From Lunularia cruciata (Eukaryota > Streptophyta > Marchantiopsida > Lunulariales > Lunulariaceae): DNA of 64,000 bases. Under the pieces are notes generated by a model. It saw nothing but the letters and a program-made list of their open reading frames with translations, was not told the origin of the DNA and ran no database searches. The DNA is taken from NCBI GenBank assembly GCA_948567375.1, contig OX419761.1:36060243-36124242 (forward strand), in the 5' to 3' direction. A program made the translations under genes and the position numbers. Of this stretch, positions 1 to 61,458 are shown one piece after another (positions within the stretch are counted from its first letter, which is position 1; each line of letters begins with the position of its first letter).

Positions 1-457
1 GGTCGATTTCAAACTATAAATGTCACCCGAGCCGCACAAGATAAATTGGCGGAGTTGAGGTAGATTGGCTTAGTGAGAAGCTACATCACACAATTTCAAA
101 ACATCATCATGCAAATTCCAGATATCCAAGAAGGTGAAGTTTTGGATTGATTTGTGCAAGGATTGAAGTCATGAACCAAATTGGAGGTCACTATGCGGGA
201 GCCACAAAACGTAGAAGAAGCCATGCAATTTGCTGAGCGTTTTGATTCCTTGGTTGCGACAACTTGGTCTCGACCTCGACCTACACAAAGCCTACCAGTA
301 CCACGAGTGGAAGAACCAGTACCAATGGAGATTGATGCTATCCAATGAAGACCACTTGGCACAGTAGATAAAGAAAGATTACAACAAAATGGAGGTTGCT
401 TTTATTGTCGCCAAGTTGGACATCGCATTGCTGAATGTCCACTTAGGAATGTGCGAC
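1..457 (+). pseudogene. gag C-terminal part with CCHC zinc knuckle (copy A1), broken
   Basis: C-terminal part of the capsid/nucleocapsid polyprotein that packages element RNA. A CCHC zinc knuckle is visible at about 399-447 (C-F-Y-C, then G-H, then C, spacing CX2CX4HX4C). Upstream, the reading frame is interrupted by TGA at 148-150 and 172-174. Both sit where arginine is expected, and the related copy D has CGC at the second site, so these look like CGA to TGA changes. A further TGA lies at about 346. The gag frame and the following pol frame differ, and the junction region near 500 carries a frameshift relative to copy D. The N-terminus lies outside the window. Confidence 0.8.
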
Positions 458-458
458 C

Positions 459-2534
459 TTGACAAGTTGCCCAGATGGAGTTTGTGGAACAAAATGTTCA
501 AGGAAACAAAGAATCCCAGTAGGAGATTTTGAGCCGCCTACTAGGAGCTTGATTAGTTCCAATGGGATTGAAGGCTCAACCTATGCAAGTTTGCTTCACT
601 TGCAAGGTACGATATCTAATCGGGGTTGTAGGATTTTGGTTGATTCTGGAAGTTCAGAAAATTGCATGTCTATGCAAGTAGCAAAGGAATTGGGTATTCC
701 TATCAAGCCAATGTTTGGAAGTAGTTTGATGATGGTGGATGGTAGAAAGGGTTTTGCATTCCGCACCTCACATCATGTTACCTTCAAGATTGGGAAAGAG
801 TACTTGGAGTGTATGAGGTTTGTAGTGGCACCTCTACACTATGATATCATTCTGGGTCTACCTTGGCTTGAACGTCATAAGGTTCAATTTGATTGGACCC
901 GACAACAAATTCAACACCAAGGTAGAAATTTCCGATTAGGTTGTCTGGCACTTCTGAGTAAGACGCCTAAGAATAGTCAGTCCCAAGATGGGGAGTTTGC
1001 CAAGAAGGAAACCATAGAGCAAGCTTGGAAGAGAGATAAGTCCCTGGAAGGGAAGTTTGTTAATGAAGCCGCCATAGAACAAGCTTTGGAGGAAGATAAG
1101 TCTGTATTTGCGGTGTGGGTCAAGCCGATTGCACAAGAACAATCTAAGGAGGGCCAAGAGCCTCATCAAGCAATGGTTGATCGGATAGTTCAAGAGTTTG
1201 CAGATGTGTTTCCGGATGATCTACCAAAGGGATTACCCTCCGATCAAGGTATACCCTTCAAGATCAAGTTATTGCCAGGGAGTACTCGAGTGAGTAGACC
1301 AATCTATTGGCTCTCACCAAAGGAGTTGGAGGAGTTGCGAACAACACTTACAGAGTTGTTGGAGAAGGATTTCATACGACATAGTACCTCTCCTTGGGGA
1401 GCACCGGTACTATTTGTTCCAAAGAAGGATGGAGGACTTCGTTTTTGTATTGATTACCGTGGACTCAATAAGCAAACCGTGAAGAATGCATATCCCTTGC
1501 CTCGGATCAATGACCTGCTTGATCAACTAAGTGGAGCATGCTACTTTTCCAAGCTGGATCTTCATAGTGGCTATTGGCAAATTCCTATTGAAGGAGAGGA
1601 CGTGCAAAAGACTGCCTTTCGCACAAGGTATGGACATTTCAAGTGGAGAGTTCTACCTTTTGGACTCACTAATGCTCCAGCAGTCTTCATGGATCAGATG
1701 CATCGGGTGTTGGAGGGACTATTGGATCCGTCCGTGGTGGCGTTCTTAGATGATATTCTAATTTATAGCAGGACAGAGGTAGAACACGTGAATCATGTGC
1801 AAGAAGTCCTAAAACGACTACGACAATGGAATTTCTACTGCAAGAAGTCAAAGTGTGCTTTTTGGCAAAAGGAGGTTACCTTCTTGGGTCATAAGATCTC
1901 ATCAGAGGGGATCAAGATGGAAGAAGAGAAGATCAAGGCCATTACTGATTGGCCTACCCCGAAGGATGCTACAAAAGTACGAGCATTCAATGGATTGGCC
2001 AGTTTTTACCAACGGTTCATCCACTATTATGCTCACATGGCTGCACCATTGACTGACCTCTTGGGAAAGAACTTTAGCTTCCAATGGACCACCAAGCATG
2101 AAGAAGCATTCCAGAAGTTAAAGCATATGGTGTCTTCAAGACCCATTCTTCAACCATATGATCCTCAACTACCTTGTGTGGTTGATTTTGATGCTTCTAA
2201 CTTTGCGATTGGAGCTGTGTTGCAACAAGAATTTCTAGATGGACTACATCCTATTGCCTTTGTGTCTCGCCGACTAAATACAGCTGAAAGAAATTACTCT
2301 GCTCGAGATCGGGAACAACTTGCAATGGTATATGCCACCAAGGTATGGAGGCATTATCTCTTGGGGAAACAAGTGATCATGCGAACTGATCACAAACCAT
2401 TGTTGCAGACCTTACACTTGGAGCACATGAAGAGTCGGCATCATCAATGGGAAGAGCAACTCCAATTGTTTGACATCAAACTTGAGTACAAACCAGGTCG
2501 GTTCCATGTCATCCCCGATGCTCTATCACGATGA
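459..2534 (+). pseudogene. Protease / reverse transcriptase / RNase H polyprotein segment (copy A1)
   Basis: The longest open stretch in the window (691 codons). It encodes the protease, reverse transcriptase and RNase H parts of pol. A retropepsin active site DSGSS lies near residue 62. Reverse transcriptase follows from about residue 270, with the PLPRI-DLLDQL motif, the [11 protein letters not shown] block and an FLDDI catalytic box (variant of Y-x-D-D) near residue 428. RNase H begins near 575 with FDAS, and has [12 protein letters not shown] and TDHKPLL further on. The first about 20 residues are out of the natural frame, so the apparent start is not biological. The stop at 2532 (TGA) replaces an arginine codon: copy A2 has CGA there and the protein motif is SRRPDL. 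Domain content is intact but the full Gag-Pol cannot be made without passing stops. Confidence 0.92.
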
Positions 2535-4016
2535 CCTGATTTGAAGGATCTTCCTCTCATCACGACGGCAATTACAATGGTGTCCATTGACCCTAAGGTC
2601 CATAATGAGTTTCAATCAGCTCTACAACAAGATCACTTCTTCCAAATGGTACACGGTCATCTGATAGCACGCGAAAAGGAGTACAACACCTTCTCCTTCA
2701 AGGAAAGCCTTTTATTCCATGAAGACCAGATCTATGTTCCAGCCAAAGGTGATCTTCAACTTATGCACCTTCAAGAAGCCCATGATTTACCAATAGCTGG
2801 TCACATGGGAGTGGACAAGACTTTGGGCACCCTCCAACGCCAATGGTGGTGGCCCAACATGACACAAGATGTTCGAGACTTTGTCCGATCATGTGAGAGT
2901 TGCCAACGGAACAAGGCCAGCAACCAGAAGCCGAGTGGACTCCTTCAACCACTCGCCATTCCATCTGCTCGTTGGGAGCATGTGAGCTTGGATCTCATCA
3001 CATCCTTGCCAAGGACCAAACAAGGACACACCGCAATTGTGGTGTTTGTGGATAAGCTTAGTAAGCAAATCCACTTGGCACCAACCTGTGATACCGTGGA
3101 TGCTCCAACCTTAGCGCAAATCTACTTCGACAATGTCTTCAAGCATCATGGGATGCCATGTGTACTCATCTCCGACCGTGATCCTTGATTTACCGAGAAG
3201 TTTTGGCAAGCACTCTTTTAGATACTCGGCACCAAGCTTGCTTTGTCCACTGCCTATCATCCTCAAACTGATGGACAAACCGAACGCGCCAATCGTACAT
3301 TGGAGGATATGTTGCGGGCCTTTGTCAATGTCCACCATACCAACTGGGATGAATGTCTTGCAGCTGCAAAATTTGCCAACAATTCCAAACAGGCAAGCAC
3401 TGGATTTTCTCCCTTCTTTCTCAATTTTGGCCAAGATCCGCTTGTTCTAGATTCTCTTCTTGCTCTCCCTCCCTCTCAGGTTCCTCATACTTCTACATTC
3501 TTGACCACTATATCCCAATCTCTCCAACAAGCCAAATCTCACCTCCTTGTTGCTCAGAATCGCCAAAAACAATATGCAGACCATCATCGTCGTGATCTCA
3601 CCTTTGAAGTTGGTGATAAAGTCATTGCTATCCTCTAGTAACCTCCCTCTCCCACTTGATACCCAAGTTTGTAAACTTGCTCCTAATTGGATAGGACCCT
3701 TTGATATCACCCACATTATCTCTCATGTGGCTTATCGACTTGCCTTACCTTCTCACATGCGTATCCATCCTGTCTTTCATGTTTCCAAGTTGAAACCCTT
3801 TGTTCCTAACCCTTCTTCCTTTTCCTCTTGAGTCCAACCTCCCCCTCTTCCTGTCCCTATCAATGATCATGAGGAGTACGAAGTTGATCGTATCCTTGCG
3901 CGTCGCCATATTCAACAAGGCCGTCGCCAACATACGGAGTACAAGGTCCTTTGGAAAGGATATCCCCTTCATGATACCACATGGGAACCTCTTTCTCACC
4001 TCTAGAATGCACAAAT
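2535..4016 (+). pseudogene. Integrase with C-terminal chromodomain (copy A1), interrupted
   Basis: Integrase inserts element cDNA into host DNA. The chromodomain of chromoviruses is known to steer insertion by binding chromatin. A HHCC zinc-binding module spans about 2776-2925 (H, H, then CESCQ). The catalytic core shows D in LDLIT, D in SDRD, and E in GQTERANR. A TGA at 3186-3188 directly follows SDRDP, where arginine is usual, and TAG lies at 3219-3221. A one-base difference near 3635 (compare A2) shifts frame before the GPF-like segment. The chromodomain at about 3874-4005 contains EYKVLWKGYP and TWEPLSHL. It ends in TAG 16 residues or so before the expected end. Confidence 0.9.
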
Positions 4017-4080: not shown

Positions 4081-4498
4081 TGTAACAATATGGAGTTTAG
4101 TGACAAAGTTAGTTGGGCTTACAAAGTAGAGAATAAGACAAAATAGCCTAGAATATTCTAGAAGTATCTAAGAAGCTTCTTAGGAGGCTTCCCAACTAGT
4201 TAACTTGCACCCTAAGCAAGTAGCTTCTAGAAGGAAGCTTCTAGAAGCTTCTAACTAGCTTAGCTTGCATGCCAAGTAGACGGCTTCTAGAAGGAAGCTT
4301 CTTGAGAAGCTTCCTAGTTAACTTGGCTTGCACTCCAAGAAAGCGGCTCAAGGGAGCTTCTTGAGAAGCTTCAAGGGTCATGTATGCTACCTATAAATAC
4401 CAAGGCCGAATGCTAGGCACTCAGAGTTTTCCCTCATTCAAGTGTCCCAATGTGAGTTTCTATTCTCCTATTTCTCTCCTCGGTTTCAGTCTTTTGCA
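4081..4498 (+). repeat. LTR 1 of family A (3' LTR of A1, abuts A2)
   Basis: Begins TGTAACAATATGG directly after a purine-rich tract (4068-4080) and ends CTTTTGCA, giving the usual TG...CA borders; 418 bp. The same sequence recurs at 7453, 9319, 15348 and 20458. Inside it are about three head-to-tail units of roughly 61 bp (about 4190-4372), each containing an ACTAGCTTAGCTTGCA-like segment followed by HindIII/XbaI-like AAGCTT and TCTAGA palindromes. A TATAAATA box lies at 4392-4399. Confidence 0.9.
4225..4399 (+). promoter_or_regulatory. Heat-shock-element-like nGAAn array plus TATA box in LTR 1
   Basis: Alternating GAA/TTC triplets separated by two bases form a perfect four-unit heat shock element at 4234-4251 (GAAgcTTCtaGAAgcTTC), preceded by TTCtaGAA at 4225-4232. 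More units follow: TTCtaGAA at 4285-4292, GAAgcTTC at 4294-4301, GAAgcTTC at 4306-4313, and GAAgcTTC at 4365-4372. A TATAAATA box starts at 4392. Heat shock factors are known to bind contiguous nGAAn units, so heat-inducible transcription of the element is a reasonable inference. No expression evidence is available here. Confidence 0.65.
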
Positions 4499-7452: not shown

Positions 7453-7878
7453 TGTAACAATATGGATTTTAGCGACGTAGTTAGTAAGGCTAACAAAGTA
7501 GAGAATAAGCCAAATTAGCCCAAAATATTCCAAAAGCATCTATAAAGCTTCTTAGAAAGCTTCCTGACTAGCTTAACTTGCACTCCAAGCAAATAGCTTC
7601 TAGAAGGAAGCTTCTAGAAGCTTCTAACTAGCTTAGCTTGCACGCCAAGTAGGCGACTTCTAAAAGGAAGCTTCTTGAGACGCTTCCTGGTTAACTTGGC
7701 TTGCACTCTAAGAAAGCGGCTCAAAGAAGCTTCTTGAGAAGCTTCTCAAGGGCCTTGTATGCTACCTATAAATACCAAAGCCGAAGCTCATGTTAGGCAT
7801 TTGGAGTTTTCCCCCATTCAAGTGTCCCAATGTGAACTTCCATTCTCCTATTTCTCTCCTCGGTCTTGGAATTTTACA
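7453..7878 (+). repeat. LTR 2 of family A
   Basis: Begins TGTAACAATATGG after a GGAGGAATA tract and ends ATTTTACA; 426 bp. Colinear with LTR 1 over its whole length, including the three internal subrepeats and the TATA box. It serves both as the right-hand LTR of A2 and as the sequence directly abutting A3. Confidence 0.9.
7595..7774 (+). promoter_or_regulatory. Heat-shock-element-like array plus TATA box in LTR 2
   Basis: The same four-unit alternating GAA/TTC element as in LTR 1 is perfectly conserved at 7607-7624, preceded by TTCtaGAA at about 7598-7605. Weaker matches follow towards 7743. A TATAAATA box lies at 7767-7774. The rest of the LTR shows point differences from LTR 1, while this 18-bp block does not. 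Confidence 0.6.
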
Positions 7879-9318: not shown

Positions 9319-9682
9319 TGTAACAATATGGAATTTAGTAATGAAGTTAGTTAGGGTTAACAAAGTAGCAAATAGGCCAAATTAGCCTAGAATATTCTAG
9401 AAGTATCTAGGAAGCTTCTTGGGAAGTTTCCCAACTAGCTTAGCTTGCACCCCAAGTAGGCAGTTTCTAGAAAGAAGTTTCTTGAGAATCTTCCTAGTTA
9501 ACTTGGCTTGCACTCCATAAAAGTGGCTCCCGGAAGCCTCTTGAGAAACTTCTCAAGTGCCTTGTATGCTCCATATAAACCAAAGCCTAAGCTCATGCTA
9601 GGCATTCAGATTTTTCCCTCATTCAATTGTCCCAATGTGATCTTCCATTCTCTTATCTCTCTTCTTAGTCTCGGTCTTTTAC
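9319..9682 (+). repeat. LTR 3 of family A (shortened)
   Basis: Begins TGTAACAATATGG and ends near CTTTTAC; about 364 bp, shorter than LTRs 1 and 2 because one of the internal subrepeats, the one with the perfect four-unit GAA/TTC block, is missing. A TATAAA box remains at 9574-9579. This LTR closes the tandem array. Confidence 0.85.
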
Positions 9683-11350
9683 TCCAATAAACTACAATAT
9701 ATCCATCTGCACTTATTTCTATTTATGATTTTTTTTGAAACATATGATATATAATGATCACATCAATAATGGAGATACAATCAAAGGTTTTACCACATAA
9801 ATGGGACAAATGACTTGCTAGAACAAATATCAAAGGTAAATAGGTCAAGATAGGTTAGGTAAAAAGTTTGAGTGTAGAGTAGAATATATATTTTCTTGGT
9901 TCTTTATGATTTGTGATATCTTGAGTTAAATAAAAGTATAGATTAGAATTAATAGATATAGAGTGAAACACATTTCATTTTGATTAAATCTTGAGATTAA
10001 ACATAAAATAATAAATTATGATTTGTAGATTTAGAGACATGAATGAAATATGAAGTGAATGTGTTTATTAATCTTGTTTCTTTTATCACATGTTTCACAA
10101 ATTTCAAATGTATCTAAGAAGTTCACTTGATTAATCAATACTAATTTCAATGATCCTTGTATTGAGAGATCTATATTATACAATAAAATTAAAATATTTA
10201 TAATCTTCAAGATTCAAATGAAAATTCAAGAACAATGGAAAATTTGTCTAATTTGGGGGTTTCTTATTGAGTGTCCAACCTCTTGAGACTAAAATAGAGA
10301 TCAAATTTGTAAATGGAATCTCTTATTCATTAGATGAGAGAACTATTTAAATCTAAAGTGCTATATAGTTCGATACATCTTTTATCATATGTGCACATAA
10401 ATATATAGTACAAAATATAGACCATATGCAAGAAATATTTGATCTTGTTTGATCCTCAATATATTCAATCTAAGAAATTACAGAATTGAAAATTATGATA
10501 AGAAAAAGTAAATAATGGTAAATTAAATTAAAATCTATGATTAAAAACCTTAAATTATGAAAGTTATACAAGAAAATCCAAATAAGAATAAATGAAAATA
10601 AAATTTGTAATCAATTAATCTAGAAGATAATCTATGATTTATTTTAAATTTTTCATATGTCTAAGTTTATTCTTTATGCGTCAATATTCAAATTATAAAT
10701 TTAAATCAACAAATCTAGAAGAGGATTTGTGTGAGATCTTTTCTAATGTCGAATATATCCCAATTAATAATGAAAACCGAAAACTATACTGAAAAATATA
10801 TCAAAAGTTTTAATTGCAAAATCTAGAGAAACATTCATATTTGATCTTGTATAAAACAAAGAATCATTCATAAAGCAACACATCTATAATAATCTAATTA
10901 AAATAATAATCAATAAGTTTAGAAAGGGATACACTGCAGACTATAATTAACATATTCAATAAGGATTTCTGTCCGATCCCTAACATGCACGATCTTGTTT
11001 GGTCTCATTTTCGAACCCATCCTCTTGTGTGTATGAGACTAGCATGATGTCCATGTACACCGATTTATTTCATTTGATCCGGTTTAGAAACTTGGTCCAA
11101 CCTTCAAAACACTTTTCGACCACATGATTTTCATAAGGTGAGAAACGAAACTCAAAAATGATAACCAACTAGAATCCATACAGATTTATTGGATCGGTTT
11201 CATAAACTTGCTCCAACCTTCAAAATAATTTACCATGCTATAAAAAATATTTTATAAGATGAGATATTGAACTTGAATAGAACTTGGTTTTGGATTAACG
11301 GTATCCAAAGAGGAGAAACCGATCGAATGATTTCAGTGTAGCATTTCACA
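9683..11350. other. AT-rich non-coding stretch
   Basis: I see no open frame with recognisable protein similarity, no LTR ends and no RNA gene here. The sequence is strongly AT-rich and looks like unconstrained intergenic DNA. Confidence 0.6.
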
Positions 11351-20457: not shown

Positions 20458-20787
20458 TGTAACAACATGGAGTTTATTGATGATTTAATCAAGACTAACA
20501 CAAAAAAAAGACCAAACTAGTCAAGAATTATGAAAATATTGTAAAAGTATCTAGGAAGCCACTTGGTACCTTCCAAGTATTGAGAATATACATGCCAAGT
20601 GGTGATTTTTAGAAGGAAGCTTCTTGGAAGCTTCCAAGTTAGCTTTGCTTGCACACCAAGTAGGTGGCTTTTAGAAGGAAGCTTTTTGGGAAGTTTCCCA
20701 ACTAGCTTAGCTTGCACATCAAGTAGGCGATTTCTAGAAAGAAGCTTCTTGAGAGTTTCCTTATTAGCTTGGCTTGCACTCTAAGAA
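20458..20787 (+). repeat. 3' LTR of element D, truncated
   Basis: Starts TGTAACAACATGG. Matches the first about 330 bp of the 5' LTR and then breaks off into family-B LTR sequence of element C. Confidence 0.8.
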
Positions 20788-21258
20788 GATGGTGTTGATT
20801 TTGGAGACCTAAATGGATGAATTAGGCCTCCAAAATGAAATATTCTCCTTCCTTTGGGGAAAGAGGCATTGCTCTTGCTCCCTCCCCCCCCCCCCCTCCC
20901 CATGTTTGTCTCGTTGAGAGCTTTCCAATGATATCTCACTTATGTAGTTCTAAGCTTCTTAGAAGAAGATTCCTCAAAGATTCACTTTGGTCAAACTTGT
21001 TTGACCAACCAAATAGTACAAGGATCAACATGTCACCAATCCATACAAATAATCTAAAGGTGGAGCTCACTAACATATAACCAATCCATGTATTTGATCC
21101 AAGAGTGGAGCTCCCTTTGAATGGACACTCTTTGTTATATAATAAAGACAAGGTGTTGCTTTAAGGCATCAAAGTATTGAGGGATGAAGCTTTGTATTCC
21201 TCGTGTGTTTCTTCTCTTGTGTTTCTCTTGGTGGTTTTTATGTCCTTGGAACATTAAA
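20788..21258 (+). repeat. 5' LTR of element C, right part
   Basis: Continues the family-B LTR from the point equivalent to GGAGGCCTAAACGGATGAATTAGG in intact copies. A C-rich run at 20886-20899 is a local expansion of the CCCCCCTCCCC segment seen in the other family-B LTRs. A TATATAATAAAG box remains near 21137. The end is followed at about 21261 by ATGGTATCAAAGTGGG, a mutated initiator-Met primer-binding site. Confidence 0.8.
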
Positions 21259-26781: not shown

Positions 26782-28824
26782 TTGATTGTCGTGAATGGAA
26801 TCCTAGAAGGTAATCAAGTGAGAGTATTAATAGATCCGGGAGCAACAGAGAATTTATTGTCTTGCTTTATTGCAATAAGCTTGGGAATGGATCTAGAGAG
26901 AGATGGAAGTGAAGAAGTAGAGTTACCAAATGGGAAAACAAAGAGGATTGAATCATTACCTAGACGGGTAACCCTCTCTATAAGAGAATATCAGGAAGCA
27001 ATTGAGTGGCGAGTGATACAGTTAGCCCGTTATGATGCAATTTTAGGCATGCCATGGATGGAGTAGTACAACCCAATGGTGGATTGGAGGAAGAAAGTAG
27101 TGAGAACCCACCAATGGTCAATCATTGGAGTTAAAGAAAAATCACACAGGCAGAAACTGCCTCTATATGTCATAGGGACGACAACTATTTGTAAGACCGA
27201 TAGATGTTTTATGGGTCTAATAAGAGAAGTCCAGAGTGCACAACTCGCTGGACAAATTCTTGAGAAATTGAAGGACGTGGTGGATGAGTTTCAAGATGCC
27301 TTTCCCAATGATCTACCCTCAGGATTACCACCTAAAAGGCAAGTAGATCACAAAATAGAGACACTCCCGGGGAAGACACCTCCTTGTAAGGCCCCATATC
27401 GCCTATCACCTCATGAGTTGGAAGAGTGTAAGACTCAAATTGAGGAGATGCTACAAAAATGGTTCATCCAACCTAGCGTATCACCATATGGGGCCCCTGT
27501 CTTGTTTGTGAAGAAGAAGGATGGTACAATGCGTATGTGCATTGACTATCGGGGTCTCAATTAGCAAATAGTGAAGAACAAATACCCCTTACCTCGCATG
27601 GATGACATGTTTGATCAACTCCATGGAGCGAGATACTTCACCAAACTGGACTTGCGGAGCGGTTACAATCAAATCCGAATTGTAGAGGAGGATGTGTACA
27701 AAACTGCCTTTTGAACCAGGTATGGCCACTTTGAGTATCTTGTGATGCCTTTTGGCCTCACCAATGCGCCTCCCACTTTCATGAGCCTAATGAACGACAT
27801 ATTTCGTCCATACTTGGATAAGTCTGTTATCATCTTCTTGGATGATATCTTAGTATATAGTAGCACGATGACAGAACACAAACAATATCTACAAGAGGTC
27901 CTCCAGATTCTAAGACAGAATCAGTTGTACGCCAAAATCTCAAAGTGTGAGTTTGGCAAGTCTGAAGTAGACTACTTAGGGCATAGAGTAAGTGCAGAGT
28001 GCATTCAAATATTGATAGATAAAATAGAGGTCATTCAAAAATGGAGTGCCCCAGAAGATCAGACTCAACTCAAGAGCTTCTTGGGGTTGACGGGATTCTA
28101 TCATAGATTTGTCAAGGACTTCTCCAAGGTTGCACAACCTTTAACGGCACTACTTGGCAAGGGGAAGAAGTGGACATGGGGAACTGCACAAGAGTTGGCC
28201 TTTCAAGAATTGAAGGCCGCCTTGCTACATGCACCAATCTTGAAGTGGTATGACCCAAAACGTCCAATCAAGTTGGCTACAGATGCATCAAGCGTAGCAA
28301 TAGGAGCAGTCCTACAACAAGAGTGGCATGACGGATGGCATCCAATTGCATATTTCTCTTGAAAGTTGTTACCGGCAGAGCGTAACTACCACACCACAAA
28401 ACAAGAAGAGCTGGCCATCATTCTAGCAACCAAGCATTGGAAGCACTACTTGGTTGAGAAGGCATTTGTAGTAGAGATAGACCACAAACCTCTAGTCTAC
28501 CTCAAGACGCAGAAGGATCTATCTCGTTGCCAAATTTGGTGGGCAGAGTGGTGACAATGCTTCAACATGACAATCACCTATGTGGAAGGTAAGAAGCAAC
28601 TTGCAGATGCATTCACCCGCATGCCAATGGCCAACAACTTGGTGGCAGAGGTTAAGATTAACCCTGAATTCTGGCAAGAGATTCTAGCTGCTACAAAAAC
28701 TGATCCACAAATTGTAGAAGTGCAATTGTCCAAAGGTGTCACCAGCACCCAAGGACTCACCTTTTGGGAGGGCAGATTGTGGATACCAAATGTCCTAGAA
28801 TTACGCACCACCATTCTAGCATAA
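26782..28824 (+). pseudogene. Protease / RT / RNase H of element B
   Basis: Protease motif near 26830 reads IDPGATEN, where DSGAT is normal, so the serine next to the catalytic Asp is replaced. RT has [13 protein letters not shown] and [13 protein letters not shown] blocks and an intact FLDDILVYS box near 27835. RNase H shows [14 protein letters not shown] and IDHKPLVYLK. Stops fall at 27067 (TAG), 27562 (TAG), 27712 (TGA in TAF-TRYG, arginine expected), 28360 (TGA in YFS-KLL, arginine expected), 28552 (TGA) and 28822 (TAA). Frame is otherwise largely maintained, so decay is mostly by point nonsense changes rather than indels. Confidence 0.9.
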
Positions 28825-28833
28825 TGTCATGAT

Positions 28834-30099
28834 TTGGCCATTACAGCTCATGTCGGAGTGGACAAGACCTTGGATGCAGTCAAGCGCCATTACTATTGGC
28901 CCAAGATGAGCAACGACGTGATGGACTATGTGCGTAGCTGCCTACTTTGTCAACAGAACAAAGCTCCTGTAAGGCTCCTTCAACCTCTCCCCACTCCTAC
29001 CCAACGTTGGGAACAAGTGAGTATGGATCTCGTCTGTGAATTACCCAAGACCACCTCAAGGTTTGACTCCATTGTGGTCTTTGTGGACCGGCTCAGCAAA
29101 ATGATTCATGTACGCCCTACCACCAAGGAGGTGACCGCTCCACAACTAGCTCAACTATACTTAGATGCAGTCTTTGCTCACCATGGCTTGTCTAGAGTAC
29201 TCATCATCGATAGAGGCACCCAATTCATCAGTTTGTTTTGGCAAACACTCTTTGGTTTCTTCAAAACCAAGTTGGCCATGTCTACAGCTTACCACCCACA
29301 AAGAGATGGCCAAACAGAGCGGGCTAATCGCACGATTGAAGACATGTTACGCGGCTTCACCTTAGAAGAGCAAGAGAGGTGGGACACCCTACTACCATTG
29401 GTGGAATTTGCTTACAACAATTCAGTGAATGCCTCCACCCAGGTCACTCCGTTCTTCTTCATGTATGGTGAGCATCCCTTCATACCTTCTAGCTTGATGA
29501 AGATCCATCCAGTGACTACCAAGGTTGATGCAATCAACACATTTGTTTCTGGAATCCAACAAGGTGTGGAGAGCGCCAAGCACAGGTTATAGATTGTGCA
29601 AAATCGACAAAAGCAGTATGCTGATGCACACCGTAGGCACATGGAGTTCAATGTTGGGGATCAAGTGTGGCTATCGACAACCAACCTCACATTAATTGGA
29701 TCTCGTAAGCTCAGACCTCGTTTTATTGGGCCTTTCTCGATTCTTTGTCGCATCGGCCCTATGGCCTATCACCTTGAGCTACAACCACACATGAAGATCC
29801 ATCCAGTGTTTCATATCTCCCTATTATGCAAATACGCTCCCCGATCAGGCCAAGGTCCTTCCACACAGGACATTCGACCCTGTCCGATAGTCATTGATGG
29901 CACAGAGGAATACGAAGTGGAGTGGATTCTCCAAAAGCGCATGCGTGGTACTCGCTATCCGCGGGTGGAATATCTAGTACAATGGAAAGGTTACCCCCTC
30001 TATGAAGCAACTTGGGAACCCACTGCCAATTTGGCACATGCGCCGGTGTTGGTGCAAGCCTTTGAGCAACAATTGCACAACAAGGACGTTGCGTCTTAA
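28834..30099 (+). pseudogene. Integrase plus chromodomain of element B
   Basis: The HHCC module is at about 28840-28970 (H in AHVGVDKT, CLLCQQ). The catalytic triad is intact: D in SMDLV, D in IDRGTQF and E in GQTERANR. One TAG at 29590-29592 (RL-IVQNRQ, glutamine expected) splits the core from the C-terminal part. The latter has the GPF-type segment PRFIGPFSIL and a well-preserved chromodomain at about 29905-30060 with VEYLVQWKGYPLYEATWEP. Apart from the single stop this is the best preserved integrase in the window. Confidence 0.92.
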
Positions 30100-35400: not shown

Positions 35401-38400
35401 CGCCAAGAGAAACACAAAAAAAGATATCACTTGGTATAGATTAAACTCCCCTTGCTTCAATTAATCATATCTCAATTTGCAATCATTTAAATCTCACATT
35501 GGTCTCCATATTATAGCATGTCTATTCTTTTATTTAAAGGTTGTTTGTTTCCCAAATGCAACTTTCAAACACACCTAAATGTCCAAAACCCTACACTGAA
35601 TATGTTTTGATCCAAACTCTTGCACCTTTGACACTTAAGAACTCTCTCTTTTGACACATGGACCTCCAAACTCCACCTCCAAAGCCTTGAGAAAGATTTT
35701 TGGTCATTCTCCTTCTACAAAAGGATATAAATAATTGAATCTGAAACCTATTCATAAGTAAGCATATGGAGGATAATAGGATCCTTTTGATTAAAAGAAT
35801 CTTGGTTCTTTATTGATTATGCCATGAATGCAAGATCAAAATAAGATACCATCTAATCCCCAAAATAATCATGATGTATAACCTAAGGCGTAATGAGAAA
35901 AGGGTTTGGGACAGGAAGATTAAGAACATAAGAAGTTTCTTTGATCAAGCTTAATACTTTGATGCTCTATCTTCCATGCTCTACTACCACTCAAGACTTG
36001 CAAGACTAAAGCATGTTGCTCTCTACCAAGCATCCACTACTCATATAGACTAGAGCCCTAGATGAGGATAAGACCATAATCCATGTTGCTAATTAATTGG
36101 ATGAATATGATTGTTCATATTACTTGCATGTATATGATTGCTCATATGGCAATTGATCAATCCACAAGATCACTAGCATTGTATAGAAGAACAAATGAGA
36201 CCGCGGAGATTTATTGTATTGACCACATAGATATATTGGGCGCATTGCATATAGTAAAATACCAAGGATACATTATTAATTTTCACTCCTTAGGCAAACA
36301 ACAATACAACAATGCTATAGGTAGATAAGATTTATTTCCAACAAGACTCAAGTACTTTTGACTATTCAATATTATTTTAAGCTTATAAAGACATAATACT
36401 AGTTGTGTATATTTAAATTTCATATTATTGAGTTTGGTTGACAATATCTAATAGAATTTTTGTAAGCTTGTAGTTATTTTCTTTTGTTTTGATTCCTATA
36501 ACATCACACACAAAATAAGATTGTAGAAAGATCAGATAGGATCATCATAGAAAATGCTTGAGCTATGATAATTTTTTCTTGCCTTTGCAAGCACATTTGG
36601 CCTAATTAAATTCAAGAAGCAATTCACATTGCCAATCTATCAACTACAACAACAATTTTGATGTAGCATTTTTTTCACTATACAAATTTCTTCACCAACA
36701 TGTGGGTGGAACAACATTTTGTGATATTGGGCATATATGTGTATATGGATCTGTTGTCTTAGTCTACATACTTGGATAGAAATGCATCAAGGGTGGTAAA
36801 TTTGTCACTAGAGCATGCAAATTTTACCTAATTGAGTATGATTACGGAGCAAACAACCAAGTTTGGTTCCCTACCAAAAATGAAATTATTAGGACAACTT
36901 ATGTGCAACTTGATGAGAATACAAACACCTCTACTATTCCATGCTTAAATATTTGTAACGCCACTACTCCTTGTCAAGTGGAGCATGTTGAACTTTGCTT
37001 GTCATTCTTGCCTCTCCTCCCACAATTGCCCTTTGTAGTATTTAATCATATTCTTAAGTTTACTATTATTCCTCCCTTTGAGCTTGCTCCAACTTCATTT
37101 ATTGAGGATAACCTTAGTTTGAGTTTACCTTTATTACCATCATATCTTTTTATTACCATCATATCATATCATCATATCTTGTTGTCACTTTGTTGAATTG
37201 ATTGTTGTAAATGGTAGCCTGATTTACTCTTCCTTGACACTTTATTCATGCTCCAACTTCATTTATTGAGGATAACCTTAGTTTGAGTTTACCTTTATTA
37301 CCATCATATCTTTTTATTACCATCATATCATATCATCATATCTTGTTGTCACTTTGTTGAATTGATTGTTGTAAATGGTAGCCTGATTTACTCTTCCTTG
37401 ACACTTTATTCATGCCAAGGGTTTCCCACTTCCAAACTTAATCAGGCTAGCAATCTCCTTGCTTCCCTCACACCTACATTGTTTTTAGATCTTTGTTGCA
37501 CTTTCCCACAAAGATGATGAATGGTCACATACACAAGGAAGCAAGGTAACAATCTAATGTTGATAATAGAAAGAGGTACAGGTTTTTTATCAAAATCTTC
37601 TTGTTGTTTCCTTCTCTCAATAAAGTTGTACATTCTTATACTTTCTCTCATTTAATTTTGACCATCTTTGGTAATATATCTTAACTCTTTAATTAAAATA
37701 TTATGTTATATTTTTTAATATATTAAAAATATTTTTATATTATTATTATTCCATTTGATTCTCTATTTTGAGATTTCTTTAATGATAGAAGGGGAAGACA
37801 GAATCTTACTATGTCTTGTATTATTATTTTTAGTTTATATCATCTAATATCAAAGCTTTCAGTATAAGTAGTTTTTTAAAAGTCATCATGAAAGCTTTCA
37901 ATGGAGTATGTGTGCTCTAACTCAAAGTATCTAATATAGAAGAATATGACTATAAATGTCATGAGGAATATATGCGAGCTTGATATTTGTAAATTCTTTT
38001 CCATCAAACTGAACTCTGACAATGGCAAGAGCTCTTAAAATCATGTTTCATCTTTGAGGAAAATTCTCCATATCCATCTCCAACTTCATTTTCTATGCCA
38101 CGTCTTAATGAGGTCCTAACAAATCATTTTTAATCTTGAAGATAATTCTACACTTGTAGAACTAAAATGATGATATTCATACTCAATATCTAGATGCTTT
38201 GGAAAATCTTGTTGTAGTGGTTCAAAATGAGTTTCAATAGTATCTCATATAGTATATGATAGTATCTCATAGACACTTTGATGTCTTTGCTCCAATTCAA
38301 AGTTGGATGCTCGTAATGAGTTTCAATCATCTCAAAGATGTTTGTTGTCTTTGCTCCAATAAAAAAGCTCAATTTTGGTTACTGAAATGATGATATCCAA

Positions 38401-46098: not shown

Positions 46099-46788
46099 CA
46101 CATTTTGGGATCGAGATCAGAGAGGCCGGGAAGGTACTGTCCTGCGGGTCCGGTCCTGTTTGATGGCCAATTATCTTGAAAGTTTCTCTAGAAGTTGCGC
46201 AAGAGAGTCTTGTCTTGAGATCTCCAGTATTTCTATTCAAGAGAATGCAAAAGGAAGAAACCTGTCAGAGCGCTGGAGTGCCTTCACCGCAGGCGGAATG
46301 AGCGCACACATTTTGGGATCGAAATCCGATAGGTCGGGAAGCTACTGTCGTGTCCAATCCTGTCCAGCCTTCTCTGGAGATTAATTTCTCGAGAATTTCT
46401 GTTCAAGAGGCTGCAAAAGGAGTAGACCCGTCTTGACATCTCCAGTATTTCTTTTCAAGAGAATGCAAAAGGAAGAGACCCGTCAGAGCGCTGGAGTGTG
46501 TTCACCGCGGAATGAGCGCACACATTTTGGGATCGAAATCAGATAGATCGGGAAGGTACTGTCGTGTGCAATCCTGTCCAGTCTTGTTGGAGACAAATTT
46601 CTTGAGAATTTCTGTTCAAGAGGCTGCAAAAAGAGTAGACCCAGATAGGTCGGGAAAGTACTGTCGTGTCCAATCCTGTCCAGTCTTGTTGCGAGACAAA
46701 TTTCTCGAGAATTTCTGTTTAAGAGGCTGCAAAAAAAGAAGACCCGTCAGAGCGCTGGGGTGCCTTCACCGCCGGCGGAATGAGCGCA
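46099..46788 (+). repeat. Tandem array of about 210-bp units
   Basis: Units start with CACATTTTGGGATCGA at 46099, 46307 and 46521 (spacings 208 and 214 bp). They end with a CAGAGCGCTGG...TTCACCGC...GGAATGAGCGCA segment (near 46270-46306, 46485-46520 and 46748-46788). Within the third unit an inner block of about 111 bp (GATAGGTCGGGAA...GGCTGCAAAA) is itself duplicated. Units differ by scattered substitutions. Short open frames run through the array but are not conserved between units. Confidence 0.85.
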
Positions 46789-49700
46789 GCAGGACGTTCA
46801 TCAAGCAGGACAACCCATGGCCGTGAAGCCAAGGCTATCCACAGTATTCGCGCACTGGCACCCGAGCCACAACTCATCGTCCGGGGTGTGGGACTTGTCT
46901 GTGAAAGTGTTCACAGATCAAGATGTACGTACTATAGAACAGATCCTGTTCAAGTATAGTCGTGACAGGAGAGCAGGATGGAGCTTCCCATATACGTTCT
47001 ATCTAGCCTATCACAAAACGTATGGTTTATTGAGCACATTAGTATCACCGTCGAACAGTGTCTGTCTGATGACACACTCGTTTGGATACAACATCATGCT
47101 TGCTAGTAGAGTGTTGTTAGTTTAAATCGAGATATTGAATACTTGATAAATTAATTTGATGTTTTCAAATCTAATCATTTGTGTGCTTGTGATATTCTTG
47201 CTCATACTTTTTATTTTTTATTTTTTATTTTTTTGGTTGTTGCACTTGTTTTGAGTCTTTAACCGCATAGCCAGGAAAGCAGCAATTGCAGCTTCATTCT
47301 CAAGTAAGAAGGAAATGGTCGTGAAAAGTAGCACTATCCTTGTACAAAGCAAAATAATTAATTCACTATCTCAAAACAAAGAGCCTGCCTGCACACACGA
47401 GGCGAGCCCGTGGGCTTTAACCACTCTTTGGTATTTGGTTTCTCTCAACTTGTGTTGGAAAATACCTTTTAGTTTAGCGGATTCATGATTTTTGAAACCT
47501 TTTTAGTCTTTTTGGCTATTTAAAATCTTGAATTAACATTTTCAGAATTTTGATTAGACAAGTACTAAAAGGTTTGCAAAAATCAAGAAAGATAATTCAA
47601 TGTTTACTTATTCTTGGTTTTTGTGAGTGACTGTTAGTAGAACTCGGATTCTAATATGGTTAACGAAAGGAATTGCCTCAACTTAATATTCTTTTGGCCT
47701 AAGGAAAGGAATTTATCTTTTCCATGACAGCTTTGTTTCTTCTCTTTACGAATTCATTCTCTTTCGAAGTGTATGCAATGGTCATTTGCCTTTCAATTGC
47801 GTTTGTTACAATTTCTTTGTTGTTGTAATGTAAAAGTGGTTGTTTGTCCTTCACACTGTTAAAATTTCTTTGTTTCATGGAACAAAAATTCTCTTCCTCT
47901 ATCAAATCTGATTTCTTCACAATTTTTCTTGTTTCTCGATCAGTATAATGAAATTTCAAACGTGCACATACTTCTATTTTAGCTTGATAAAAATACCAAT
48001 ATTTTTCTGCTATGATAATCTTATTATATCAATAGGAATTTTTTAGTATGATGTGCCTCTTTCACTTTAACTAGACGTTGTAGATCCTCATGTGATAAAT
48101 CAAGAATCTCCCTTGTATGATAAAATTCTACTTTTTTAAATGCTCTTCAATTGATATGTAAAGCCAATCAACTTTGCTTTACATATCAGTTGTTGGGCCG
48201 GGTACATATGTGTACCAATGATAATTCTCTTACCCATCTCCTTCTCATGAAGCTTGATCAAACGTTATGCATACATATGCTTAAGCATTTCATACCCGAG
48301 GTTACTTTGAAGTTACCTCCTCCTCATGGAGCTTAATCAAACTTCATACATATATGTGCTTAAGCATTTCATTCCCAAGGTACTTTGGAGTTCTCTCACT
48401 ATAAGAGCGTGTCCAAGAATTAAAGAAACGTACTCTTAGGCTCTAAAAATGAGAGAGCTTGGGTTGTTTTCGTTCGCGGACTGAACGAGTCTCGCCGACT
48501 TCAGTCCTATTTAACCATCCGGGGTTGGTGGGGTTCAAGTCGAAAGACAGACGAGACTTCTAACTTATAGCAATTCTTTTTTTACACTTTTAACAAAAGC
48601 ATCGTTACTATTTGCTACGTCATTAATGAGACACGTTTTATTTTCAAAAATCACTTCTCTTCTACATTGTAACCTTACCCATATTCAATAAGTTATGTAT
48701 CGTTCCTTATACATCTCATACACAAAAATCACTTTGGTACTTCTCCCGAGTGAAAGTATAGCTACCTTGCCTACACCTTCATTTGATACTTTTGACCATC
48801 TCCCTTTCTAACCTTGTGATTTTCTTTAATTGACTTGAATTTAGAAGGAAAAAATTAAAAACCTCTCTATATGAGATGTCATATGATTGTATGCTCAAAA
48901 ATCAATCCATCAATTGCGCATTGCCTTCTGAAAGCTGCTAGAGGTCAATAAAATAAATGAGATGTTTCTTCACTGAAGTCAATTTCTCCATAACAAGCAA
49001 AATTTCTGTTTGATCTTCTTTTCTTATGGAGTTCTTTGTACTGATTCTAGATTCATAGGCATAGTGCACTAGCTTCCTACAAGAATTATAATTACACTAC
49101 TTGTACACTTTCCCCATTCCTCCTCATTGATCAATATAAGGTTTTTCTTTGCAAGTCTTTGAATTCCTAAAGAATATCCTTAAATTACAATTTCATTCTT
49201 GTTGTACAATTACAATCCTTCATTCTGTTATTCTTTGTAGTTTATCTTTTCTTGAAACCTTTCTTGATAGATTCCTCTTTTATGTAACTTGGTGTAGATC
49301 TTCAAGCAGGAAGTTCATTGGATTTGACTAAATTGTGAAGATTTAATATATTATTTGCCTCTTAAGATCATCTTGTACGAACAAATTTGTCAACTCAGCA
49401 TAGAAATAAGTTTATTTCCTTATGCACAAAACAATAACCAATGGCTGAGATAACTGCTAGATTGTTAATTGTTGGAAGAATTTAATCTTCATTTTTAAAA
49501 TTAAGCAATGATATTTTTGTATTTTCCATTCAAATGTTTAATCTATGTACGATTTATTGATATGGAGTTTCATCATCAGACTATTAATCTTTTCTTTAAG
49601 AAATGCCTTTTTACTAGTAGAGTTTGTCTCATACTTCTTTGGCTGATTCCACTCTCTAGATACGCACACAAAATATTTGAATGTTTAACAATGCGATGAT

Positions 49701-61309: not shown

Positions 61310-61458
61310 TCGATCCTTTTCTTCGTAAAGCAGAGCTTTAAAAGCTAAAAGAAAAGCAGCAGCACCTAATAAAATTGAATGAATAGCTAAAATTATAGTA
61401 GTCATTTTACTCTTATCTATCCAAACATAACCAAAAAATGGAAAAGAATCTACAAATA
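61310..61458 (-). pseudogene. psbC: Plastid psbC fragment 2 (middle part of CP43), nuclear copy
   Basis: Minus-strand reading [38 protein letters not shown] matches the CP43 segment [39 protein letters not shown] across about 40 residues. Frame is intact over this stretch but there is no start, and flanks diverge at once on both sides. It corresponds to a part of psbC well downstream of fragment 1, so intervening psbC sequence was lost or never inserted. Confidence 0.85.

Follow-up and report, generated by a model that had tools for sequence, protein, structure and literature searches.

A non-random heat shock element module in the LTR promoter of a highly amplified chromovirus of Lunularia cruciata

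A highly amplified chromovirus of the liverwort Lunularia cruciata, called family A here, carries a strongly non-random promoter module of heat shock elements (HSEs) in its long terminal repeats (LTRs). The module was read in a 64,000-nucleotide stretch of the genome (the window), and its central part is a perfect four-unit HSE ("4P"). Activation by heat through host heat shock factors (HSFs), in the fashion of the retrotransposon ONSEN, would most likely be its function. We consider it probable, judging from the promoter anatomy, that the family-A U3 contains an HSF-responsive enhancer which amplifies the chromovirus under heat or proteotoxic stress.

The window contains these parts of family A:

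447-3188, plus strand: pol, with protease, reverse transcriptase and RNase H (447-2534) and the zinc-binding part of integrase (2535-3188), from Pfam
3832-4002, plus strand: part of a chromodomain, enclosed by stops, at the C-terminal end of integrase (PF00385 Chromo in Pfam, E 4.1e-12, above cut-off)
4081-4498, plus strand: LTR1, the 3' LTR after the polypurine tract GGCGGGGGAATA, from direct reading and comparison with insertion L003/L004
4437-4454, plus strand: R-region sequence TTCAAGTGTCCCAATGTG, used as the family anchor, from genome match counts
7453-7878, plus strand: LTR2, from direct reading
9319-9690, plus strand: LTR3, short, 3' end approximate, from reading (82.6% identity to LTR1 over 340 sites)
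20458-20800, plus strand: LTR of copy D, diverged, 3' end arbitrary (65.1% identity over 318 sites)

The pol region matches gag-asp_proteas (4.7e-9), RVT_1 (1.2e-38), RT_RNaseH_2 (1.6e-33) and Integrase_H2C2 (1.6e-22) in Pfam, i.e., protease, reverse transcriptase, RNase H and integrase in the Ty3/gypsy order, with integrase recognised via its zinc-binding domain; the integrase core region (3189-3831) contains stops. This order and the C-terminal chromodomain bear out the first-pass annotation, which had called the host element a Ty3/gypsy chromovirus. Membership of COPIA78/ONSEN is ruled out by the pol order, in which integrase comes after reverse transcriptase and not before it as in Ty1/copia, and by the chromodomain; family A can only resemble ONSEN in how it would work, and never be an ONSEN.

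A complete-looking insertion elsewhere in the genome, of which the two ends were read (L003/L004), has an LTR of about 423 bp that starts TGTAAC and ends TTTACA, a primer-binding site (PBS) TGGTATCAGAGC which we take to be that of tRNA-Met, a polypurine tract and, on both sides, the 5-bp sequence GTGAG as a target duplication. Family A is a chromovirus-type LTR retrotransposon, and its sequences are numerous: the R-region anchor is matched 6475 + 6555 times in the genome when one mismatch is allowed (1 + 0 for the reversed control), and the LTR/PBS junction has 2603 + 2670 matches (control 0).

Several other features of the window were recorded. A second Ty3/gypsy remnant lies at 27715-29592, with a Pfam integrase match at 28825-29592 and a frame at 27715-28362 that is reverse-transcriptase-like on reading. 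A 164-bp unit is perfectly duplicated in tandem at 37085-37415, and a plant U3 snoRNA (46741-46963, minus strand, 113 bits) adjoins tandem repeats of 103 and 214 bp. An Rfam match to IsrR at 61321-61423 was borderline (52.5 bits, with a cut-off of 52) and was judged to be probably chance.

The promoter module itself is made up as follows:

4151-4163, plus strand: three-unit HSE GAATATTCTAGAA, from the chain scan; 5' of the subrepeats and unrelated in sequence to the 4P block
4172-4372, plus strand: tandem subrepeats of about 60 bp (3.3 copies by TRF), carrying more two-unit GAA/TTC pairs
4234-4251, plus strand: 4P HSE of LTR1, GAAGCTTCTAGAAGCTTC, from direct reading, pattern scans, genome-wide counts and presence within laboratory HSEs
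4392-4399, plus strand: TATA box TATAAATA of LTR1, from direct reading
7607-7624, plus strand: 4P HSE of LTR2, from the chain scan and direct reading; TATA box at 7767-7774, also by direct reading

The 18-mer GAAGCTTCTAGAAGCTTC occurs once each in LTR1 and LTR2 and consists of four alternating GAA/TTC units at a 5-bp pitch. Both blocks had been claimed in the first-pass annotation, which placed them inside tandem subrepeats of about 61 bp, and both were recovered in that setting. It had also put all units within about 170 bp upstream of the TATA box; this holds for the 4P blocks (140 bp upstream in LTR1, 142 bp in LTR2), but the whole array starts about 220 bp upstream. In 79 of 100 sampled copies the TATA box lies equally far from the R-region anchor, and direct reading together with genome counts confirms a canonical HSE, by sequence, at promoter distance from it. 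The three-unit HSE, about 70 bp upstream of the 4P block, is an addition to the earlier description, and for this site (4151-4163) GAANATTCNNGAA is present in 49 of the 100 sampled LTRs.

The block had been described as unchanged between two LTRs that otherwise differ, and it is indeed identical in LTR1 and LTR2 despite an overall identity of 89.2% (398 aligned sites). As also described, it is missing from LTR3 and degraded in copy D: LTR3 has no 4P block but retains a three-unit array at 9390-9402, and copy D has no chain of at least three units. The U3 of LTR1 (4082-4390) is very poor in symmetric methylation sites, with 4 CG and 2 CHG among 127 cytosines on both strands and a CpG observed/expected ratio of 0.15; for comparison, the pol region (447-3188) has 126 CG and 126 CHG among 1230 cytosines.

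In 40 Markov simulations of the window, no four-unit chain arose. When the U3 of LTR1 was Markov-shuffled 100,000 times, a four-unit array appeared in 4 cases and an array of at least three units in 426. With two mismatches permitted, the 4P pattern is at chance in the window (7 matches vs 6.34 expected), so among HSE patterns in the window the perfect form alone stands out. Tandem subrepeats do exist here and could have multiplied a random HSE-like motif of no effect. However, given how few shuffles contain a four-unit array and that the cores are conserved within the subrepeat array (see below), such an origin is highly improbable.

Another proposal is that the palindrome AGAAGCTTCT has a different role (e.g., for another transcription factor, a hairpin, recombination or packaging), with its likeness to an HSE being a by-product. 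The block is a perfect palindrome in tandem repeats, and direct-repeat deletions in it are frequent, both of which agree with this proposal. It nevertheless keeps an exact 5-bp phase across four alternating units, it has the sequence-unrelated GAATATTCTAGAA upstream of it, and its 18-mer is found within laboratory HSEs, i.e., in the synthetic HSE2 of the HSE2-lacZ construct of a yeast Hsf1 study (PMC4214751, in the passage cited) and in the HSE pull-down oligonucleotide of an HSF1/HSF2 study (PMC8492855, likewise). We therefore regard a different role as quite unlikely.

Across the whole 566-Mb genome, the 4P pattern has 7083 sites and its reversed control 117. For the 18-mer there are 5213 exact occurrences (control 0) and 10664 at up to one mismatch; arrays of five units are rare (67 + 71 matches vs 7 + 2 for the control). 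Family-A LTRs hold 48 of the 50 first-listed 4P sites in contig order, 21 of them assigned by an exact anchor no more than 450 bp away and 27 more by BLAST. The other two are L001, in a different LTR-like sequence, and L002, which is unrelated. Eight large contigs total 558.0 of the 565.8 Mb assembled, which agrees with a liverwort whose karyotype comprises eight autosomes plus one small sex chromosome.

The L001 site (G000:C1:359785-359807) has five HSE units close to a TATA-like motif and may hint at a second HSE-bearing family. A 23-mer, GAATTTTCAAGAATGTTCAAGAA, was seen at 10 of the 100 listed five-unit sites (e.g., G000:C6:30424808, L002) and is apparently part of a different repeat that bears a five-unit pattern.

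LTRs were sampled by taking 100 copies in position order from exact matches to the R-region anchor, a choice that takes no account of the HSE. The best array in the LTR promoter was 4P in 43 copies and 3P in 40, with none in 17; one of the 43 (L080) was later removed because it is not homologous across the LTR, and the array counted for it may be a neighbouring copy's.

Conservation was assessed in an alignment of 103 rows, 5 of which were dropped for low homology, using 95 sampled rows; the P values are guides, because tandem units may homogenise and the columns are non-independent. In the 4P, the minor fraction averages 0.029 over the 12 core letters vs 0.090 in base-matched LTR columns (P 0.008), and 0.058 vs 0.102 for the linkers (P 0.17). 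Other 5-bp-paired GAA/TTC letters outside the 4P give 0.045 vs 0.097 when pooled (P 0.0002), and the core of the three-unit HSE at 4151, taken alone, varies no less than matched columns do (P 0.44). When the comparison is confined to the subrepeat array, the 48 paired core columns have 0.033 vs 0.090 for base-matched letters (0 of 10,000 draws, made with replacement wherever a base class ran short), with the linkers intermediate at 0.062. The comparison with the rest of the LTR that the first-pass annotation had proposed thus favours the HSE, whose core letters vary about one-third as much as matched letters of the same array. Other parts of the LTR are better conserved than the 4P block: by mean identity, the R region comes first among 378 windows and the 18-bp window of the block comes 50th.

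These figures bear on whether the HSE is a fossil, i.e., a site inherited from the founders which binds HSF in vitro, in a family that is silenced or otherwise driven, so that its abundance would reflect recent amplification only. Genome-wide counts alone cannot separate fossil from function, as the whole LTR is repeated thousands of times, and a tree-based selection test was not robust. The reduced variation of core letters relative to their own array, with linkers in between, and the constraint on paired cores outside the 4P nevertheless argue against a mere fossil, and we hold it to be unlikely.

The tree-based test sets internal (source-lineage) branches against terminal ones. The 4P core has 2 internal and 25 terminal changes, compared with 461 and 1341 for the other 342 columns (Fisher P 0.04; P 0.005 with base-matched draws), and the TATA columns show no internal depletion (8 internal, 20 terminal). 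Over five trees, the P value for internal changes was 0.004-0.014 in three and 0.056-0.059 in two, and that for the fraction ranged from 0.005 to 0.30, so the test is suggestive of core selection but tree-dependent. A genome-wide count of core vs linker variants (10664 - 5213) was rejected as a selection test because it is confounded by a direct-repeat deletion form of the block: 18 of the 24 one-mismatch core variants in the 100-copy sample carry that form's letter. Excluding those letters, single variants in core and linker stand at 6:7, which is too few to decide. The first-pass annotation had staked its reading in part on a genome scan for intact four-unit blocks against neutral expectation; the scan gave enrichment along with core conservation, and the reading withstood it, with one form of the test depending on the tree.

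The 4P also decays with age. LTR pairs (17) were defined by nothing other than spacing and strand, with 14 being position-ordered and 3 coming from the best LTR1 matches, which makes the latter biased. In the six young pairs (divergence at most 1.7%), the 4P is in both LTRs of four, in one LTR of one and in neither of one. In the eight older pairs (at least 3.6%), four of which aligned with more than 100 gap columns such that some may be false pairs, the corresponding numbers are none, five and three. All three biased pairs (0-0.3% divergence) have it in both LTRs. On the tree, terminal branches of 4P copies (41) are shorter than those of other copies (30; P 0.0001) and of deletion forms (24; P 0.005).

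One recurrent route of decay is a direct-repeat deletion of about 15 bp that converts 4P to 3P. It is found in 24 of 95 rows and accounts for about 21 separate tree changes, while 23 SNP columns of similar frequency have 3 to 21 each. The deletion is therefore frequent in origin and seldom the founder of new groups, which fits selection for four units, although high recurrence alone could give the same result. Retention of the site in younger copies is equally predicted by plain decay.

If host HSFs do activate family A, the enhancer would consist of the perfect 4P about 140 bp 5' of the TATA box, the separate three-unit HSE and several two-unit subrepeat sites. Heat or proteotoxic stress would bring trimeric host HSF onto the HSE units, the bound HSF would recruit Pol II to the LTR to make genomic RNA, and this RNA would give rise to new insertions, each adding another HSE. 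After insertion, the 4P would decay by point mutation (often G/A or C/T) or by the recurrent deletion. HSF binding in the host, heat induction and heat-driven amplification are thus steps that we infer. In Brassicaceae copia elements, heat response correlates with high-affinity heat-responsive sites such as 4P (PMC5059998, in the passages cited), and the cited part of a Marchantia study has MpHSFB1 binding an HSE in a gel shift (PMC12445474).

The host side of this scheme was also considered. The HSF DNA-binding domain is matched at two genome loci: all 100 domain positions at one, which has four stops in its span (perhaps an intron), and positions 1-59 at the other; two is few for a land plant. 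Among 28 HSP20 matches, the upstream kilobases of 20 were read and contained one three-unit array and no four-unit array, against a background of 1/42, but in 14 of the 20 the last open stretch lacked a Met codon, so these regions may not be promoters. HSP20 promoters are therefore a weak yardstick for host HSEs, and with arrays at background they count against the scheme rather than for it. The earlier reading of the LTR as an HSF-type promoter accordingly stands in part: the canonical HSE, its distance from the TATA box, the thousands of copies and the conserved core favour it, but the 20 HSP20 upstream regions read showed no similar HSEs.

A wider claim is doubtful: that one chromovirus has placed about 6,800 four-unit HSEs (an extrapolation to all 7083 sites of the 48/50 share in the initial 4.4 Mb of a single contig) in a genome with two detected HSF loci, that heat drove its Ty3/Gypsy bursts, and that the sites act as an HSF sink which rewires the heat response.

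Family A resembles ONSEN/COPIA78, as described in the cited parts of two studies (PMC3907296, PMC5059998), in having an LTR with a 4P HSE and a second, weaker site, and ONSEN's element is likewise present in full-length copies and absent from fragments. Nearly all LTR cytosines are CHH in both cases (all of them in ONSEN 1 and 2, and all except 4 CG and 2 CHG of 127 in the family-A U3). They differ in that ONSEN is a Ty1/copia element (A. thaliana has 24 copies, A. lyrata 55), whereas family A is a Ty3/gypsy chromovirus with thousands of copies; HSFA2 binding and heat induction have been demonstrated for ONSEN, while family A is known from its sequence.

Among gypsy elements, moss RLG2 (also from a bryophyte) is heat-induced and moss RLG1 is repressed by heat shock (PMC7466625), and heat-induced elements are described from Cryptomeria and pine (PMC9780303). 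Bamboo PHRE1 and PHRE2 were studied in heat as well, but their LTRs are tied to TCP, DOF and GATA factors (PMC8656106). Unlike for family A, the cited passages of these accounts mention no HSE. The genome of L. cruciata was reported to be enlarged by Ty3/Gypsy bursts (PMC9985172; a 580-Mb assembly, taken to be that of this species, vs 566 Mb here), and HSEs likewise go unmentioned in the cited part of that account. A search of titles and abstracts in open-licence PMC full text found none on HSEs in liverwort or gypsy retrotransposons, which is weak as an absence. Caenorhabditis Helitrons similarly supply a large share of HSEs (almost two-thirds in C. elegans), but they are animal DNA transposons, and HSF-1 binding was found there by ChIP-seq (PMC6927752, in the passages cited).

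Heat-induced gypsy elements and transposons as major HSE carriers are thus already known. The HSF-driven retrotransposons in the literature cited are copia elements of flowering plants, whereas the present case is a gypsy chromovirus of a bryophyte with the strongest class of HSE in thousands of copies. This suggests convergent capture of a heat-shock switch as a route to transposon success, and it puts forward a directly testable reason for bursts of retrotransposons in a genome that is otherwise stable. Family A is, besides, a natural case of a small HSF set facing thousands of high-affinity sites.
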